A model generated the notes under the pieces. The model was given only the letters and a program-made list of their open reading frames with translations, did no database searches and was not told where the DNA came from. A stretch of DNA of 64,000 nt from Haliclona indistincta (Eukaryota; Porifera; Demospongiae; Haplosclerida; Chalinidae): the NCBI GenBank assembly GCA_964017065.1, contig OZ024787.1:2802482-2866481 (forward strand), written 5' to 3'. Below are positions 13,060 through 22,746 of this stretch, piece by piece. Every line of letters begins with the position of its first letter. Within the stretch, counting starts at the first letter, position 1. The position numbers were made by a program, and so were the translations under genes.

Positions 13060-15350
13060 GGTTAATTACAAACCCTCTGTTTTTGTACCACACTGCTAAA
13101 CCCTCTGTTTTCATCACACTGCTACACCCTCTGTTTTCATATCACAGTGCTACTCCCCCTGCTTTTGTATCCATCTGCTACTCCCCCTGCTTTTGTATCC
13201 ATCTGCTACACCCTCTGTTTTCATATCACACTGCTACACCCTCTGTTTTCATATCACACTGCTACACCCTCTGTTTTCGTATCCATCTGCTACAGTACCG
13301 CTCACCAGTAAGTGGACCAACACCCGCGGGGGAGACTCGCAGGCAACCCGGGGGTAATTTTGTCTTGCCCGCGGAACCGTGTATCATTAACCGCGGGTAG
13401 ATGCGAATACAGAGTGCATCAAGCGCTGGTGCGGATACGTGCGAGCACTGTATATGCTCGCGAAAGTCACACAACGACAACGTGAGTCTGCCTAGCTATC
13501 CAGCGGGTCGCAAGTGCATGCAAGGCTGCATGAGGGCCACGGGTTAGCGTGGTGCGGGCAGCGGGTACACGTTCACGGACCCGCGGGCACCCCCGAGTTA
13601 CGCGCGGTTAGCCCGCGGGTTTGAGTACACTTACTCGTGAGCGGTACTGTACACCCTCTGTTTTCATATCACTCTGCTATACCCTCTGTTTTTGTATCAC
13701 ACAGCTATACCCTCTGTTTTCGTATCACACTGCTATACCCTCTGTTTTCATATTACTCTCCTATACCCTCTCTTTTTGTATCACACTGCTATACCCTCTG
13801 TTTTTGTATCACACTGCTATATACCCTCTGTTTTTGTATCACACTGCTATACCCTCTGTTTTCGTATCACACTGCTATACCCTCTGTTTTCCTATCACAC
13901 TGCTATACCCTCTGTTTTTGTATCACCCTCTGTTTTTGTATCACTCTGCTATACCCTCTGTTTTTGTATCACACTGCTATACCCTCTGTTTTTGTATAAC
14001 ACTGCTATACCCTCTGTTTTTGTATCACACTGCTATACCCTCTGTTTTTGTATCACACTGCTATACCCTCTGTTTTTGTATCACACTGCTATACCCTCTG
14101 TTTTTGTATCACACTGCTATACCCTCTGTTTTTGTATCACACTGCTAAACCCTCTGTTTTCATATCACAGTGCTACTCCCCCTGCTTTTGTATCCATCTG
14201 CTACACCCTCTGTTTTCATATCACACTACTGCTACACCCTCTGTTTTCATATCACATTGCTACACCCTCTGTTTTCATATCCATCTGCTACACCCTCTGT
14301 TTTCATATCACTCTGCTATACCCTCTGTTTTTGTATAACACTGCTATACCCTCTGTTTTTGTATCACACTGCTATACCCTCTGTTTTTGTATCACACTGC
14401 TATACCCTCTGTTTTTGTATCACACTGCTATACCCTCTGTTTTTGTATCACACTGCTAAACCCTCTGTTTTCATCACACTGCTACACCCTCTGTTTTCAT
14501 ATCACAGTGCTACTCCCCCTGCTTTTGTATCCATCTGCTACACCCTCTGTTTTCATATCACACTGCTACACCCTCTGTTTTCATATCACATTGCTACACC
14601 CTCTGTTTTCATATCCATCTGCTACACCCTCTGTTTTCATATCACTCTGCTATACCCTCTGTTTTTGTATCACACAGCTATACCCTCTGTTTTCGTATCA
14701 CACTGCTACACCCTCTGTTTTCGTATCCATCTGTTACACCCTCTGTTTTCCTTCACACTGCTACACCCTCTGTTTTCATACCACACTGCTACACCCTCTG
14801 TTTTCATATCACTCTGCTATACCCTCTGTTTTTGTATCACACAGCTATACCCTCTGTTTTTGTATCACACTGCTATACCCTCTGTTTTCGTATCACACTG
14901 CTATACCCTCTGTTTTCCTATCACACTGCTATACCCTCTGTTTTTGTATCACACTGCTATACCCTCTGTTTTCGTATCACACTGCTATACCCTCTGTTTT
15001 TGTATCACACTGCTATACCCTCTGTTTTTGTATCACACTGCTATACCCTCTGTTTTTGTATCACACTGCTATACCCTCTGTTTTCGTATCACACTGCTAT
15101 ACCCTCTGTTTTCCTATCACACTGCTATACCCTCTGTTTTCGTATCACACTGCTATACCCTCAGTTTTCGTATCACACTGCTATACCCTCTGTTTTCGTA
15201 TCACACTGCTACACCCTCTGTTTTTGTACCACACTGTTAAACATTCTGTTTTTTACCAACACTGCTATGGTCCTCTGTTTCTGTCTCACGTAGAAAACAT
15301 TTGTTTTGTCTCACATATCTAAAACCCTCTGTTTTCGTTGATTATTTGCT
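13060..15350. repeat. 2.3-kb minisatellite with 28-bp units
   Basis: Tandem units of about 28 bp read tataccctctgtttttgta plus tcacactgc, with variants (tacaccctctgttttcatat..., tactccccctgcttttgtat...ccatctgc). Variant order repeats at about 13.09-13.21, 14.15-14.30 and 14.45-14.64 kb, giving higher-order structure. Because 28 is not a multiple of 3 and the unit lacks stops, all three plus-strand frames stay open for hundreds of codons. I regard these as artefacts. One family T MITE interrupts the array at 13293-13649. Units degrade after 15230. Confidence 0.95.
13293..13649 (+). mobile_element. Family T MITE copy 2, inside the minisatellite
   Basis: A 357-bp copy with TA at 13291-13292 and 13650-13651. 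Removing it together with one TA restores a perfect minisatellite junction (atccatctgc, TA, caccctctg) that occurs elsewhere in the array. This proves both the boundaries and the TA duplication. Confidence 0.95.
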
Positions 15351-15557: not shown

Positions 15558-15566
15558 GCATAATAC
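15558..15566. repeat. Left target-site duplication GCATAATAC
   Basis: A nine-base direct repeat, identical to 22738-22746, immediately outside the left end of the MULE. Confidence 0.9.
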
Positions 15567-15966
15567 GGTTCCGTACAACATTGCACTGTTTTGGCTGATT
15601 TTCCGTCAATGATGGAGTAAAAGAGTGTAGGGGGTACACTGTTGCTCTCCTTCTTGTTATTAAGGGAAAAAAGAGTGTGGGGTACACTGTTTGTCTCCAT
15701 CATAATGATGGAAGAAAAGAGTGTGGGGTACACTGTTTGTCTCCATCTTTGATGGAAGAAAAGAGTGCGGGGTACACTGTTTGTCTCCATCATAATGATG
15801 GAAAAAAAGAGCGTAGGGTACACTGTTTATCCCCATCTTTGATGGAAGAAAAGAGTGCGGGGTACACTGTTTATCCCCATCTTTGATGGAAGAAAAGAGT
15901 GCAGGGTACACTGTTTATCCCCATCTTTGATGGAAGTAAAGAGTGTGGGGTACACTGTTTTTCTAT
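15567..15966. repeat. Left terminal inverted repeat array of the MULE
   Basis: After a degenerate outer unit come about seven units of 45-55 bp, each made of a small hairpin (ccatcataatgatgg or ccatctttgatgg) plus agaaaagagtg(t/c)ggggtacactgtttgtc. The outermost clear unit (gtgtagggggtacactgtt then cttcttgttattaaggg) is matched in reverse at 22625-22690, so the two arrays are true inverted repeats. Arrays of this kind may be multiple transposase-binding sites (inference). Confidence 0.9.
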
Positions 15967-16023
15967 TACACTACATTGTTTTAAGAAATTAAGATCATCA
16001 AGATTCATTATTCATCTAATTAA

Positions 16024-16670
16024 TTATACAGTTAGTGGAATGGTAGTGTTGTGTGTGCGGCGACTGTTCTTGACAGTGTTTGGGAATGGTGTCAGCTCCT
16101 TTTGGACCAAAATTTGCTCTAAGTGTTGTCGAATAGACTTGGTTTCTAGCCGCATGTTCTCAGGTTTCTCTCCAAGGGCCAAATGAAGTGCCCAGGCTAT
16201 GGCATAGCATCCACAATCGACTTTGTTCGTTTGTTTCTGAACCAAGGGTAAAACTACCTCCTTGGTAGTTTCTCCATAGATGGTTTTGATTTGTCTTTGC
16301 AGTTCTACTGGTACTGAACCTTGTGGAAGACTGTCATACAGGAGTACTGTGTTGTTTAGTGAGCATGTCGTTACCCAGTGCTTTGTGTCGCCTCCGCAAT
16401 ATAAGATCTGGATGCTTCCATCACCAGCAGGCTTAAAACCATTTTTTATTTGTTCATTTAGAGTGTTCTGTAGACCTTTGATTTTGGGAAAAGCCTCCTT
16501 GATTAACGCTGAAGCCGAATTGATATGGCAATCATTTAGCATTTCTCCTCTTCTTATTGCTTCAAGATCATTCTCCGTAATTTCAAATTGCACTGTCAAA
16601 TCTGTAGTCTTCGTCATAGCTTCTGGCTTTGTCTTTCTTCGCTTACGTGTAGGAGTGGCACTGTCGTCGG
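16024..16670 (-). other. Last exon: Ulp1/SENP-type cysteine protease domain
   Basis: This terminal exon encodes a basic linker (TRKRRKTKPEA) and then a C48-type protease. Its catalytic set is visible: His in TKHWVT, Asp in LLYDSL, Gln in VQKQTNK and Cys in KVDCGCYAIAW. The family removes SUMO-like modifiers. Some plant and animal MULEs (for example plant KI-MULEs) also carry Ulp1-like domains, from established knowledge. The stop codon is at 16024-16026, and the inverted repeat array begins 58 bp beyond. Confidence 0.88.
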
Positions 16671-19600
16671 CTACATAAATAAACAATTAGTTTGTGCATT
16701 CTAACTTGTTAACAGGACTCACTAAAATCTCTAATCTTGTCAGGTGGACCTTGTGCATCATCCACAGCTTTGGTAAACCTCCTCTTATTCCTGGCTTTGC
16801 TTTGTGCACTGGAGCGAACACTTCTTGCTTCAGGAGTTTGTCTTTCATAGGTTACTGTCATTCCACTAAGCACAGCCAAGTGCTGCATAGCAGCTGCCAT
16901 GTCTAGCTTGTAAGTAGTCATCATAGCCACTTCGAGAGGGTCTGGTGAACTGCCTTTGCACAGTCGATTGTACGATTCAACTGCATTGGTTGAATTTGGA
17001 ATTTGTTGGAAAGTAGCCTCACTCATGTCCGCGCAAGTAGCCGACAGCATTTCTGTAAGACAATTAATAATTATTGGTATAAAACAAACTAACTCACTCA
17101 AATGTTTAGGTCTTGTCCACCATTCAACCCACTTAGCACTTGTAGTCCACCACATTGGGTTGTGTTGAGTAGCGTATTTTTCATGTTTTTTTGACACTAA
17201 GTGAATTGCACTTTCCAGTCCGGTTTCTCCACACATAGCCTTGAATAAAATGTCTACTTCTTCTTTGGTTTTGGCTTCCAATATTGCATAACCAAGGCTG
17301 ACAAACACTTGCCGTGACTCTACTGAACATTCCTTGAGCCGTTCCCCTACTCTTTTGACTGATCTCATGAAGTGAACCTTGTTTAAAATAGACAAATCAT
17401 AACTCATGTTTGGTACACAGACTTAATAACTAACTTGACAGCCTTTCATCACATTGGCAACAGTCTCCTCCCCAATGGCACCTTCTAGTCCCTTGATCTG
17501 CGTATCTGACCAATCTGCTACAATTCCTACTAGAGACTTTCCTATCACAAAGGTAGGGCATAATTCTTTAACTTTGCGAAACAACACTGTAAAGCATGTG
17601 GTGTAAGCTGCCGCATCTAGTTGGTTTAACCACACTCTGGCAACAACCATCCCTGTGTATAAACAAAATTATACATATAAGTTTCTTTTTGTCAGCTTAA
17701 TTGTAGCTTACATTGCAGTGTCTCATAGTCAAATGTAACTACATTGATTGTGTTACCAAGCTCGATAGAAGTTTTGAAGGTAGCATCCACTTCAATGAAG
17801 TCAGAGTTTCCAAGAACTTTAGCCATAAGAGGGCTCATGCATAGGACCCAGGTAAACTCTCTACCAACACTAAAATCTTGCACATAAGGATGACCAAGTT
17901 CTTGGTATGTGGCAAAATGTCCCCCTGTATGCACATACATTAAGGCAACATGTTACTAGCACCACTACGCTAAATTTACCCTGTAATCCGATGCTCTCTT
18001 TAGTAGTGCTGTCATACTCTAGCAAGCTTTTTTCAAGCTTCAGTATGCAAGATTTTGGATCCACATGACTGTCACGCAGAGTTGACAGTCTTAGGTTTTT
18101 CATTTTGCCTTTGTGTGTTGCTGCCAACGATGCTGCGCTGGGCATGTATGCCAAACCTTTTCCTGTTAAAGACAATACTTATAGTGTGCATGATACAATT
18201 ATTATTAATGTACATACCAATCATTATGTCAGAGGTTTTTAGCCGTGGATTTTCAACTAGTGCCCTTCTTATGTCGGCCTCTACCTTCACTGGAATCTTG
18301 GCAGGTGGGTTGAGAGGGTGCGAATGAAGATTGTTATCTCTCATATCGCCGCATCTTAGTAGACCACCTATCCATCTTCTTTTATCTTCACAATCCTTCG
18401 GCCAAATATAGTAAAAATCCACTAGACAATCTTTAGTTAGTTCGAGGTTGATGGTAGGATGATTTGGACAGGCTTTGCTCTCTCTGGTCGATGTGACATA
18501 AGAACAGTCAGCATTACCGCAAACTTTCACTCCTTTACATGGCGCTATCTTGTAACAAACATCTTCTTCTGTCCCATTTACATTCATGCTAGTTGTGCGA
18601 ATTCCACGAATGTGTCCTTTTCCGAATTGGATGTCATCGAAAAGGAAGTGTTCGTTGGATGCATCATAAAATGGAAGTGACGTTACATCTGAACAAAATG
18701 CTACTCTTCGTGGATGGTCTTGTTGAAATACTCCAGGGTATTGGTAGTCATCAGGAGATGTGATTTCAAACCAGTTTTCACTTTGTGACAATAGAGTGCG
18801 GATGATAGGTAATGCTTGGGTCCCTTTGGATTTTCGTTTTGTCGAAGTGGAACTAACTCTTGTTTTTGTGGAGGAATCAGTAGAGAGATCAGAAGAGAGG
18901 TCAGCAGATTGTCTTGCGCCAAGTTCAAGACTAGGTGACAAAACACTAGTAGGAGTGGTAAGGAAGTTTTGACCTTCTGACGACACCTATAAAGAACAAT
19001 AACAAAGCAAAATGAATTATTTGTTTGACATGTCTACCTTACATGTGCTGCAATCAGTTAAAGTTTTACATGTGTTTCCGTAATAATGTATTGTTAAAGT
19101 AGCTCAATCTCTGTCATTGTGTATGAATTACAAGTACTAAATTGATTACAATGTAACAAGCAGGAGAGACATGCAGTTAGGGTACATGTACATAAATTAT
19201 CAGTTATAATTACTACTATGTATGTTGCACTAGTATGTGAGTATTTGCGGTACGTACTTGATATGTGTTAAATGCGATGTTGTAGTGTTTTCCTATAGCA
19301 ACTCCCAAACTCATTGTCCGGGTGAGAAGGCCATTCAGCCATGCTATCTTAATCAGTTGCCTCCAGGTATCAAGTGATAGTTGAAGAAACATGCCAGAGC
19401 CATACGTCTGAGAATCAGACAATTTTAGCTTTTTCATACGATCTGACTGTGAACCTCGTATCCACTCAGCAATCTGTAAGAAGAAATTGACTTATGCATT
19501 AACTTTCACCTCTAGCATGCATGTATACCTTCTTCTCTCCGGTAGCATTGATTGCACACAGCTCGAAGATAGCTCTAACAATTATCTCCATCTGCTTTTG

Positions 19601-22123
19601 GACATCAACCAAGTCTTGAGGGCTTGTGGTGCAAATATCACAGCACTGGCTTGTTGGTGCTAATGCTGTGCTCGGATCTTCTCCAAAGTATTCCAAAATC
19701 ACATGTCTCCTGCACTTGCCATTTAGATGAGCATAAACAAACCTGGAAGTGTACACAAAATCGGAATGTTAATACGCTATTAACAGACTAATCACTTATT
19801 GCATAGTACATGTCAACAGTTATAACTAGCTATCACTAGAATAATCTTACTTCCAGCTGTCTTGAAATTGAGTCAAAATACATTGGTCTTGACTGCTCTT
19901 GCACCAATAGCAAGCCATCTGTAAATCATCTTCTCTGTACAACAATATTCCTAAAATTTATGTATACACAGCTCAATTAATTAATTATGAGATTAAGTTC
20001 GATCATACCTTGAGCATTTCGTCCATCTCTTCCACCTCGACCAAACATCTGTACCATATCCTCTATAGATTTTGGAACACCAATTTTTACAACTGCTTCT
20101 ACATCTCCACGATCAATACCCAGACCAAAGGCGGAAGTGCTAACCATTACTTCAACTTCCCCATTCTTCCAATTCTCAAGTGCTCGCAACTTATCATGTG
20201 TCGACATGTTCTTCCCATGGTAGGCACAAGATTTTAGGCCAGAACGACAAAGCGCAATGGCAAGCCTAGGTACATCCTTAGCAGCATCAAGATAGACAAT
20301 TGCCCTTCTTTTCTGAATGTGTGGTAGCACTTGATGAGCAAGGTGTGTAAATTTGCACTCGTAGTCGTCATCAACTACAGAACCTGTGTACACATAAAAT
20401 AGCTCTAGATGCAGAATTTTTGTGGGTATGTTTTGTGGATTAACTAAACTAAACAAGAATAGTTTTGTGTGTAAGAGTATATGCAAAAGCCCATGAAATA
20501 AATTATTGTGTGCATTTATACAGTAACGCTGAGCTAGCAAGTGTATGGTTAGTACCTTTAGGCAATGGTCGCAGTTGCTTCACAATATAGGCAACATTTG
20601 GCTTGTTTACTGATGCAATTTCTCTAACTGGGTTGATCAATAGACTAAGAAGCTTGGCTTGTACAGGAGGTGTAGCAGTAGCAGTCAAAACAGCAATCGG
20701 AATTCCAGTGAAATGAGAATGAAGCTCAGCAACATGTGCATACTTTGGCCTGTAATAATGAATTATACACAATTATAATGCAAAAGTGTGACACCATAAA
20801 TAGAACTTACCGAAATGAAATCCAGGAAGAAAACAAATGAGCTTCGTCAAGGGCTATCACTCCAATTCTATTTTTGCAGTTTAGCTGTTTAAAAAGCTCT
20901 CTAGGTTGCCCATTGTCAGCAAAGAAACTCTCTGGAGTAACAAATACGATCTCATATTCACCTGCGAGCAATTTGTGAGGTATCTGCGTGTCTTGCTGTG
21001 CTGTGCCCAAAAACGTTGCTTTGATTCCTTTAGAAGACAATGAACTTGATTGATCATCCATTAAGCTGATAGTTGGAGTCAAAACGACTGTTGTCTTCTT
21101 CAACCATATTGCTGGAAACTGATAGCACAGGCTTTTTCCGGAACCAGTAGGCTGTACTACAAGAGCATCTTGTCCACCAACGAGAGCCTTGATTGCCCTT
21201 AACTGCCAATCTTTGAAGGTGGTTAGATTGAATTTCTTCAGTAGCAATCCAGTCATTGTGAGGTCAAAATCAGCTACAAATCAGAAGGATAATGATTATT
21301 TCAAGCTCAACACACATAGTAGGTTACATCAGGAGAGTTACTGTACTGGCTGTTAACTAGCCAATACTTTACACATTAAAATGTATGTTATTCGTGAATT
21401 GAAAACAGTTCACAAAAATTTGTGATTATGGAAATTAGAATCACATTGATGTCAAATGCTTATTTCATGGGACACATATTATTGTAGAGAAAGAGCGGTG
21501 TACAATGTATAGTGAAGTCAGTTTTATTTTTTATCATCAGTCTACATTAAATTCTACGTAGTACCCCTTGGCTCTATCACACCGATACAGCAATAGTATC
21601 ATACATACACAACTGAAGCCCAGTAATCTTACCTTCATGAGACAGAGGAAGTGAATCTCTTTGGCGTAGCACTGTGAGAATATGTGTTTTTCTTGCAGGA
21701 TGTTTATGTCTTGCAGTAGAACACATAGTACAGTAATGAAAGTCACACTGCTTGCAGAAGATGTCTGCTTCACTACCACAGTTCTCACACATTTCTAAAG
21801 AGAACAAGCTTCATAATAATTATTATTCAATTGTCCTTTTAATGCTTACCTTTACAATCAAGTAATTTGCTGCTATCCATCAATCTCTCTGAGTCTTCAT
21901 TCAGTATTCTCTCATGTAGTATGCTGCTGCTATCCATCATTCCATCTTCATCTAGCATGCTGCTATCCATCATTCCATCTTCATCTAGTATGCTGCTGCT
22001 ATCTATCCTTCTCTCATCTAGTATGCTGCTGCTATCCATCCTTCCCTCATCTAGTATACTGCTGTCATCCATCCTTCCATCTTCATCTAGTATGTCCATT
22101 TTCTTTGAGCCTTCATCCATCAT
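16024..22123 (-). CDS. RecQ helicase - MULE transposase - Ulp1 protease fusion, 15 exons, about 1,545 aa
   Basis: Exons: 22123-21850, 21794-21633, 21273-20811, 20749-20556, 20383-20009, 19950-19851, 19742-19529, 19473-19258, 18986-18218, 18162-17980, 17924-17712, 17652-17435, 17377-17098, 17052-16723, 16670-16024. All introns are GT-AG, phases fit and the total is 4,638 nt. Residues 1-91 are acidic 12-residue repeats (DSSSILDE). Residues 94-140 form a B-box-like C/H cluster. RecQ runs about 146-680: Walker A near 188-193, DEAH 288-291, QMFGRGGRDGR 476-486, a Cys-rich zinc region 490-560 and the RQC winged helix to about 680. Next come a Ser/Thr linker and a GCM/WRKY-like zinc domain ending LHSHP. 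The MULE DDE core has D about 1030 (IEVDATF), D about 1101 (VADWSD) and E about 1246 (STNAVESYN). The Ulp1-type protease has H1428, D1443, Q1477 and C1483. Exon 9 encodes both the RQC end and the transposase N-terminus, which argues for one protein. Two genes from one transcription unit is the alternative. Confidence 0.88.
19258..21273 (-). other. RecQ helicase exons (exons 3-8) inside the MULE
   Basis: Six exons encode a full RecQ-type superfamily 2 helicase: FKDWQLRAIKAL, QPTGSGKSLCYQFPA, ALDEAHLFSSW, VLTATATPP, STSAFGLGIDRGDV and MVQMFGRGGRDGRNA. A Cys-containing zinc domain (CYWC, CRRHVILEYFGED, CCDIC) and a winged-helix RQC domain follow. All helicase motifs look intact. The last RQC residues are encoded at the start of the next exon (18986), which continues into the transposase. 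Confidence 0.9.
21850..22123 (-). other. First exon: acidic 12-residue repeats encoded by a 36-bp minisatellite
   Basis: Units such as MDSSSILDED(G/R) repeat about six times. An in-frame stop lies near 22170, and the ATG at 22123 is the first in frame after it, so I chose it. The region is probably disordered. Confidence 0.75.
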
Positions 22124-22190
22124 TCTCTCTAGTATACTGCTGCCATCTTGACTAAAATGCTGCTATCCATGCTAAAATGCAGCTTTTGGC

Positions 22191-22199
22191 CCTTATAAC
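22191..22199 (-). promoter_or_regulatory. Possible TATA box of the MULE gene
   Basis: On the minus strand the sequence reads gttataagg, about 70 bp upstream of the ATG at 22123. Placement fits a TATA element, but there is no transcript evidence. Confidence 0.35.
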
Positions 22200-22386
22200 C
22201 AAAGGCTGAAGGATTTAGCACCTTGTAACCAAAGGCTGAAGAATTTAACACCGTGCCTCAGAGATTAGTCCAGAGTCACAATTCCATTCAAGTAATCCAC
22301 ACCTTAAATTTGCTAAACAGCAGTTACTGTCAAGATAATGCGATGGTTTTCGTGAGAAACATATGCGAGAGAAACATGCACAGCAG

Positions 22387-22737
22387 CAAACAGTGTACCC
22401 CACACTCCTTTCTTCCATCATTATGATGGAGACAAACAGTGTACCCCACACTCTTTACTTCCATCAAAGATGGAGACAAACAGTGTACCCCACACTCTTT
22501 ACTTCCATCAAAGATGGAGACAAACAGTGTACCCCGCACTCTTTTCTTCCATCAAAGATGGAGACAAACAGTGTACCCCACACTCTTTTCTTCCATCATT
22601 ATGATGGAGACAAACAGTGTACCCCACACTCTTTTTTCCCTTAATAACAAGAAGGAAAAGAACAGTGTACCCCCTACACTCTTTTATCCCTTCAAAGAAG
22701 GCAACATGTTTGTAACAGTGTAGTTTTATCCTATCCC
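22387..22737. repeat. Right terminal inverted repeat array of the MULE
   Basis: About six units of agacaaacagtgtaccccac plus actcttttcttccatc hairpins, reverse complementary to the left array and ending in a degenerate outer unit. The last base before the duplication is 22737. Confidence 0.9.
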
Positions 22738-22746
22738 GCATAATAC
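22738..22746. repeat. Right target-site duplication GCATAATAC
   Basis: Identical to 15558-15566. Confidence 0.9.

Follow-up and report, generated by a model that had tools for sequence, protein, structure and literature searches.

A 7.17-kb transposon of Haliclona indistincta with a RecQ helicase, a MULE-like transposase and a Ulp1-like protease in one predicted protein

The window analyzed here is a stretch of 64,000 nucleotides from the sponge Haliclona indistincta (contig OZ024787.1, positions 2,802,482 to 2,866,481). At positions 15567 to 22737 it contains a transposon of 7,171 bp with the minus strand as coding strand. The gene model consists of 15 exons running from 22123 to 16024, which sum to 4,638 nt with GT-AG at all junctions. 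This model had been proposed by an earlier sequence-only reading and was re-derived in phase as 1,545 codons, giving a predicted protein of 1,545 residues without an internal stop. The order of its domains is B-box-like finger, RecQ motor, RQC, zinc region, DDE core and Ulp1-like protease. The features are listed below by window position; no strand was assigned to the duplications and the terminal regions.

15558 to 15566: left copy of the 9-bp target-site duplication, GCATAATAC on the plus and GTATTATGC on the minus strand
15567 to 22737, minus strand: whole transposon, 7,171 bp; the same two ends occur in at least seven further copies
15567 to 15970: 3′-side terminal region, terminus GGTTCCGTAC and 8 units of about 44–48 bp; a folded unit is a potential hairpin
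16024 to 16670, minus strand: exon 15, Ulp1-like protease (H1428, D1443, Q1477, C1483) and stop codon
16723 to 17052, minus strand: exon 14, catalytic Glu E1246
17098 to 17377, minus strand: exon 13, H1129 of the CxxH motif and helical insertion (helices placed by comparison with a relative's model)
17435 to 17652, minus strand: exon 12, DDE core, second Asp D1101 and C1126 of the CxxH motif
17712 to 17924, minus strand: exon 11, DDE core, first Asp D1030
17980 to 18162, minus strand: exon 10, transposase
18218 to 18986, minus strand: exon 9, last residues of RQC, linker, transposase N-terminus and conserved Cys/His residues (C816, C822, C827, C839, H842, C853, H887, H889)
19258 to 19473, minus strand: exon 8, RQC winged helix
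19529 to 19742, minus strand: exon 7, RecQ zinc-binding region and start of RQC
19851 to 19950, minus strand: exon 6, start of the RecQ zinc-binding region
20009 to 20383, minus strand: exon 5, second half of the RecQ motor (GRGGRDG at 479)
20556 to 20749, minus strand: exon 4, RecQ motor (TATAT at 322)
20811 to 21273, minus strand: exon 3, RecQ motor (TGSGKS at 188, DEAH at 288)
21633 to 21794, minus strand: exon 2, B-box-like zinc finger, residues 94–129
21850 to 22123, minus strand: exon 1, start codon and acidic repeats
22377 to 22737: 5′-side terminal region, terminus GGGATAGGATAAAACTACACTG and 7 units of the 3′-side repeat, inverted relative to the other end
22738 to 22746: right copy of the 9-bp target-site duplication

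A full RecQ with zinc and RQC regions could be identified in the N-terminal half, as had been claimed from the sequence. The motor motifs at 188, 288, 322 and 479 are followed by a cluster of Cys residues from position 533 and by the RQC part. The Pfam models DEAD (7.3e-24), Helicase_C (1.9e-15) and RQC (5.3e-6) matched above their cut-offs, and RecQ_Zn_bind was narrowly below it (24.3 bits, cut-off 25). A profile of the family alignment A1 (12 rows, the window protein among them) matched E. coli RecQ with an E-value of 2.4e-104. No Pfam match to HRDC was found in the window protein. The B-box-like finger was supported by a match to PF22586 below the cut-off (3.8e-4) and is also present in several relatives.

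The Ulp1 protease at the C-terminus was confirmed by a narrow margin. PF02902 was below the cut-off for the whole protein (0.028) and just above it for exon 15 alone (3.8e-4; 20.8 bits compared to the cut-off of 20.7). A search of the PDB sequences with the Ulp1-like part resulted in weak matches (SENP7, E 0.25). The residues H1428, D1443, Q1477 and C1483 are presumably the catalytic set.

The two halves of the protein meet in exon 9. This exon opens at residue 667 and the Pfam match of RQC extends to residue 681, so that the exon joins the end of RQC to the transposase N-terminus, in agreement with the sequence-only reading. The eight Cys/His columns of exon 9 are invariant across the 12 rows of A1. 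They had been labeled a GCM/WRKY-like finger; the conserved residues stand, but the label could not be established, as no Pfam model matched this region in any of the 12 rows. A chance open frame was considered for the gene model and ruled out by the 4,638 nt over 15 exons together with the motifs, including the catalytic ones, that are kept across relatives.

The inverted ends and the perfect 9-bp duplication described by the sequence-only reading were found as described, with GTATTATGC (minus-strand reading) on both sides of 15567 and 22737. Both ends are arrays of units with a spacing of 44–48 bp; the 3′-side array has 8 units and the 5′-side array 7. Near the ends lie inverted arms of 192–211 nt with a complementarity of 92–95%. 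Two terminal units folded singly form hairpins, one of −9.8 kcal/mol (z −4.3) and one, from the 5′-side end, of −8.1 kcal/mol (z −4.1). The 404-nt end (15567 to 15970) folds at −72.4 kcal/mol, compared to −39.9 for shuffled sequences (z −8.4), and two control stretches gave z values of 1.3 and 0.4. Just beyond the transposon, a tandem repeat array with units around CTATACCCTCTGTTTTCGTATCACACTG was observed at window positions 14149–15322, in which several frames stay open.

Further copies with both ends were searched for in the assembly of the window (144 Mb). Since 40 of 68 candidates for the ends, 36 of 411 for DEAD and 52 of 157 for the transposase were scored, the copy numbers are lower bounds. 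At least seven copies with both ends were found besides that of the window. Six of them are 7,100–7,167 bp in length and show 98.6–99.3% identity to the window copy, gaps included; the copy L119 has kept both ends and contains two nested insertions. Perfect 9-bp duplications, all of them different, flank seven of the eight copies (GTATTATGC, GTCTATAAC, CTCATTAAC, GTTTTCAGG, AATTATGAC, GCCTATAAG and ACCTGATAA), and therefore the boundaries of the element are not due to chance. The coding sequence was checked in seven of the eight copies (L119 was left out) and the frame is intact in six. A frameshift was found in exon 4 of L009, and exon 11 is longer by 6 nt in L012 and L013. Across all 21 pairs of copies the number of synonymous differences is zero, and thus the spread must have been very recent. 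Truncated copies of the element are also present in this genome.

A second, diverged family was found on contig C4 through its transposase part. The order of its parts (B-box, RecQ, RQC, zinc region, DDE, Ulp1) is the same as in the window element. The identity to the window protein is 36–48% for the transposase pieces, 39% for the Ulp1 piece, 42% for the B-box and 39–53% for RecQ, with all pieces in the range of 35–64%. This element is 5,963 bp in length with the ends GGGTACAGATAAAACTACACT at C4:2602210 and C4:2608172 and a perfect 9-bp duplication of its own (GCACACAGC); 5.0 kb and 1.4 kb of its sequence were read, and the intervening 1.9 kb is known through matches only. The frame is open from RQC into the linker and is uninterrupted at the site of intron 8 of the window gene. 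The alignment contains stops in some stretches, which are introns or decay. The ends of this family fold with z values of −3.9 and −3.5. Since seven of eight copies have different 9-bp duplications and a diverged family has its own, the whole is one mobile unit.

Proteins related to the predicted protein were identified in the databases. The protein search resulted in 21 proteins (P0001–P0021) with a query coverage of 48–84% and an identity of 32–36%, and two more searches, with alignments that include the transposase, gave lists of 31 and 105 proteins. Among the rows listed, those of the family with a transposase part have no protein name. The set analyzed comprises 113 proteins (P0001–P0021, P0023, P0121–P0207, P0209, P0213, P0218 and P0224); rows outside it were judged to be RecQs of the ordinary kind or other helicases and were left out. 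In 56 of the 113 proteins, a segment of helicase or RQC and one of transposase occur together, each at least 30 residues long; these 56 include P0150 and P0151, which have no match to the RQC part. Motor and transposase both reach at least 100 residues in 33. The helicase part alone was found in 12 proteins, of which P0188, P0190, P0192 and P0194 carry HRDC (PF00570) and are probably ordinary RecQs. The many cut-off pieces suggest that the database relatives are unspliced frames.

The two halves are inherited together. Among 18 members with both halves, the pairwise distances of the two are correlated with r = 0.97, which was reached in none of 999 permutations. A tree built from 48 RecQ sequences unites the window RecQ with the 21 relatives and with P0023, which has about 100 transposase residues as well, in a single branch whose support in the SH-like approximate likelihood ratio test (SH-aLRT) is 100. 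This branch is apart from BLM, WRN and RECQ1 and its neighbor is a plant pair (90), whereas the RECQ1-like gene of the host (L007) groups with RECQ1. The window branch is long (1.52), and its placement inside the family is unsure.

The termini of the relatives vary. An N-terminal ubiquitin-like domain ahead of the B-box was found in P0009 and P0021 (PF00240) and by eye in P0001, P0007 and P0152. In some relatives a Tudor-, chromo- or Agenet-like C-terminus is located at the position of the Ulp1 part of the window protein, above the Pfam cut-off in P0123 only. A ubiquitin/SUMO theme thus recurs, with a ubiquitin-like N-terminus in relatives compared to acidic repeats and a C-terminal Ulp1 part in the window copy. 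A scan of viral contigs resulted in 10 loci with matches within query residues 156–483, and a scan of genome contigs in at least 80 prokaryotic loci with matches within residues 107–738. In a library of viral structures, the best match to the family model was an uncharacterized bracovirus protein (BFVD O92526, E 3.1e-11), which is perhaps a virus-borne MULE.

The DDE core was found to have the residues D-D-CxxH-E and an RNase H fold that contains a helical insertion, as in MULE / MuDR. MULEs have target-site duplications of 8–11 bp and long terminal inverted repeats, and Ulp1-carrying MULEs are known. Long terminal inverted repeats are present in the window element, and the duplication is 9 bp in seven of eight copies and in the second family, which is the length described for MuDR (PMC3627910). 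In a profile-profile comparison of 39 family sequences with 9 MULEs of the same genome identified by PF10551, the DDE part matched with 89.7% and the controls with 0.2 or less; 3 of the 12 MULE stretches fetched had no usable frame and L128 was not used. The best transposase fold matching the family model was that of ISCth4, a member of the IS256 family. A kinship of IS256 and MuDR is described in PMC10045372. In a VIA search with a second model only RecQ structures were among the matches listed, and the absence of transposases from it is uninformative, as one domain filled the list. On the basis of the profile-profile comparison, the fold and the duplication length, the MULE core of the sequence-only reading was borne out as MULE-like. 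Unlike MULE / MuDR, the window element has a B-box-like finger and a full RecQ with RQC ahead of the transposase, and its DDE part is too diverged for the Pfam MULE model.

Six short elements (L120–L125) of about 1.4–3.5 kb have ends that are about 84–89% identical to those of the window element. As scored, duplications of 9 or 11 bp are present in four of them and none in two. Elements with related ends and without RecQ, which the sequence-only reading had considered, do therefore exist, but none of the six is similar to any part of the 1,545-residue protein. From their sequence they look like non-autonomous passengers that would be mobilized by the window-type or a related transposase.

RecQ in a DDE transposon as such is already known; new here is a MULE-type transposase with the helicase fused in front. 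KolobokH of fungi, a DDE transposon of the C/DxxH group, encodes RecQ downstream of the transposase domain, and one red-algal Kolobok has RecQ on the opposite strand (PMC9587614). The window element is similar to KolobokH in combining a DDE core of this group with RecQ. It differs in having RecQ upstream and in its 9-bp duplications of varied sequence, compared to TTAA in Kolobok; KolobokH is reported from fungi only. Cellular RecQs (BLM, WRN, RECQ1 and bacterial RecQ) are distinct from the window RecQ, which is in its own clade, has no HRDC match and is part of a transposon protein. The novelty claimed by the sequence-only reading was retained for the RecQ-MULE fusion and not for RecQ-carrying DDE transposons (Academ, KolobokH). 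No description of such a fusion was found in the literature searched, which did not cover Repbase and the AcademH paper, so that a database-only or unpublished entry is possible. The element differs from the known RecQ transposons in its type of transposase, in the position of RecQ at the N-terminus of one predicted polypeptide with the transposase, and in its B-box and Ulp1 parts.

Another kind of RecQ transposon was observed in the same genome. In L025 (G000:C6:9610620-9620619), RecQ and a DUF6589 protein (2.5e-32) are encoded on opposite strands. Seven 1.9-kb versions of this kind (L016–L022, of the group L016–L024) have the common ends TAGTCTCG(T/G)CCCCAGACC, which are flanked, as judged by eye, by a repeat of about 8–9 bp. 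DUF6589 may be the Academ transposase, and through this link L025 is possibly an AcademH element. A RecQ-like stretch was also found in L015 (G000:C8:2382823-2392593), where the alignment contains stops and the motor groups with the DUF6589-associated RecQ.

Taken together, the locus is a young 7.17-kb transposon that encodes one predicted protein of 1,545 residues with RecQ, MULE-like DDE and Ulp1-like parts and is likely to use the helicase to unwind its own hairpin-rich ends during transposition. The gene would be transcribed and spliced as a single message. The DDE core would cleave and transfer strands at the ends, and a staggered insertion would give rise to the 9-bp duplications. RecQ, tethered by RQC and linker, may act in cis on the arrays of hairpin units at both ends, where it could melt the end structures or pass single strands to the DDE core. 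An alternative substrate could be the gapped branched intermediate following strand transfer. The Ulp1-like part may target SUMO, or a modifier like it, on proteins of the host that serve in repair or silencing.

Several observations weigh against this reading. The Pfam MULE model PF10551 gave no match to the window protein or to any other of the 12 rows in A1, and its matches were weak in 2 of 5 further relatives (0.093 and 0.06; 13.6 and 14.2 bits compared to a cut-off of 27.6); we read this as divergence, hence the name MULE-like. A smaller profile comparison of 4 family and 2 MULE sequences gave no match (0.3%) and was superseded by that of 39 and 9. ISCth4, the sole PDB match of Foldseek at E ≤ 0.001, was superimposed with a root-mean-square deviation of 4.6, and the P element and Hermes have nearly equal scores. 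Motif VI of RecQ is GRGGRDG in the window protein and GRAGRDG in all 11 other rows of A1. The copy L014 (G000:C8:4032478-4042248) is the only one of the eight without a target-site duplication, the loss of which is possibly due to later recombination or deletion beside the copy. The transposase part alone was found in 45 of the 113 relatives, for which truncation, introns and true absence of RecQ are indistinguishable. The folding of the outermost 134–138 nt of the ends barely exceeds that of shuffled sequences (z −1.6 and −2.2), and hairpin-forming ends could exist without needing a helicase.

The same fused element could also use its helicase after insertion, either to link the product of strand transfer to replication or gap repair by the host or to make transposition replicative. 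We regard this as possible but less favored. RecQ enzymes generally work on recombination intermediates and at forks; in this family the winged helix of RQC is retained, and the recent copies have multiplied without divergence. That the 404-nt end folds strongly favors the ends as substrate, but by association only, and nothing separates the two models. That exons 1–8 and 9–15 are separate genes between common ends appears improbable: an intron of 271 nt lies at the border and some relatives, e.g., P0123 and P0124, start in the transposase part, but the end of RQC is located in exon 9, both halves are in one predicted chain in 56 of 113 relatives and the frame of the second family is open at the site of intron 8. 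The single polypeptide proposed by the sequence-only reading was thereby supported as a prediction.

It is very unlikely that the element is an AcademH transposon, even though RecQ in Academ (PMC3627910) and duplications of 9–10 bp in AcademH (PMC10045372) are described and both features are found in the window element. The profile of the window family did not match the DUF6589 protein of L025 (0.1%), and the RecQ of L025, encoded by a separate gene on the opposite strand, is different from the window RecQ in the tree. The transposases of Academ and the window element appear different as judged through this DUF6589 protein of the same genome, which may be of the Academ type. A recent capture of a host RecQ, as in Pack-MULEs, which are described to capture coding sequence (PMC10799480), or a misjoining of neighboring genes has almost no likelihood left. 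It is already contradicted by the RecQ part, which is in its own clade distant from the RECQ1-like gene of the host, by the fusion, which recurs in the second family and in relatives of 32–36% identity, and by seven of eight copies that are mobile as a unit.

Beyond the single locus, the preferred reading of a fused element with its helicase acting on the ends may extend to the family. On balance, it appears to be an ancient and widespread MULE-type lineage in which RecQ has long been fused and has co-evolved with the transposase, a self-contained machine to unwind, cut and insert hairpin-lined ends, with parts of the ubiquitin/SUMO system (B-box, ubiquitin-like, Ulp1) added at both termini. 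If true, RecQ would have been taken up three times by DDE transposon superfamilies, and here for the first time as an N-terminal portion of the transposase polypeptide. The lineage has been missed by current models, since its transposase-bearing rows among those listed are without a name and the Pfam MULE model fails on the window copy. The role of RecQ in Academ and fungal Kolobok is not known to have been tested, and this element could address directly why DDE transposons recruit RecQ. With one predicted chain, near-identical copies, intact frames and ends of hairpin units, the question of the helicase would therefore be answerable with variants of one protein.

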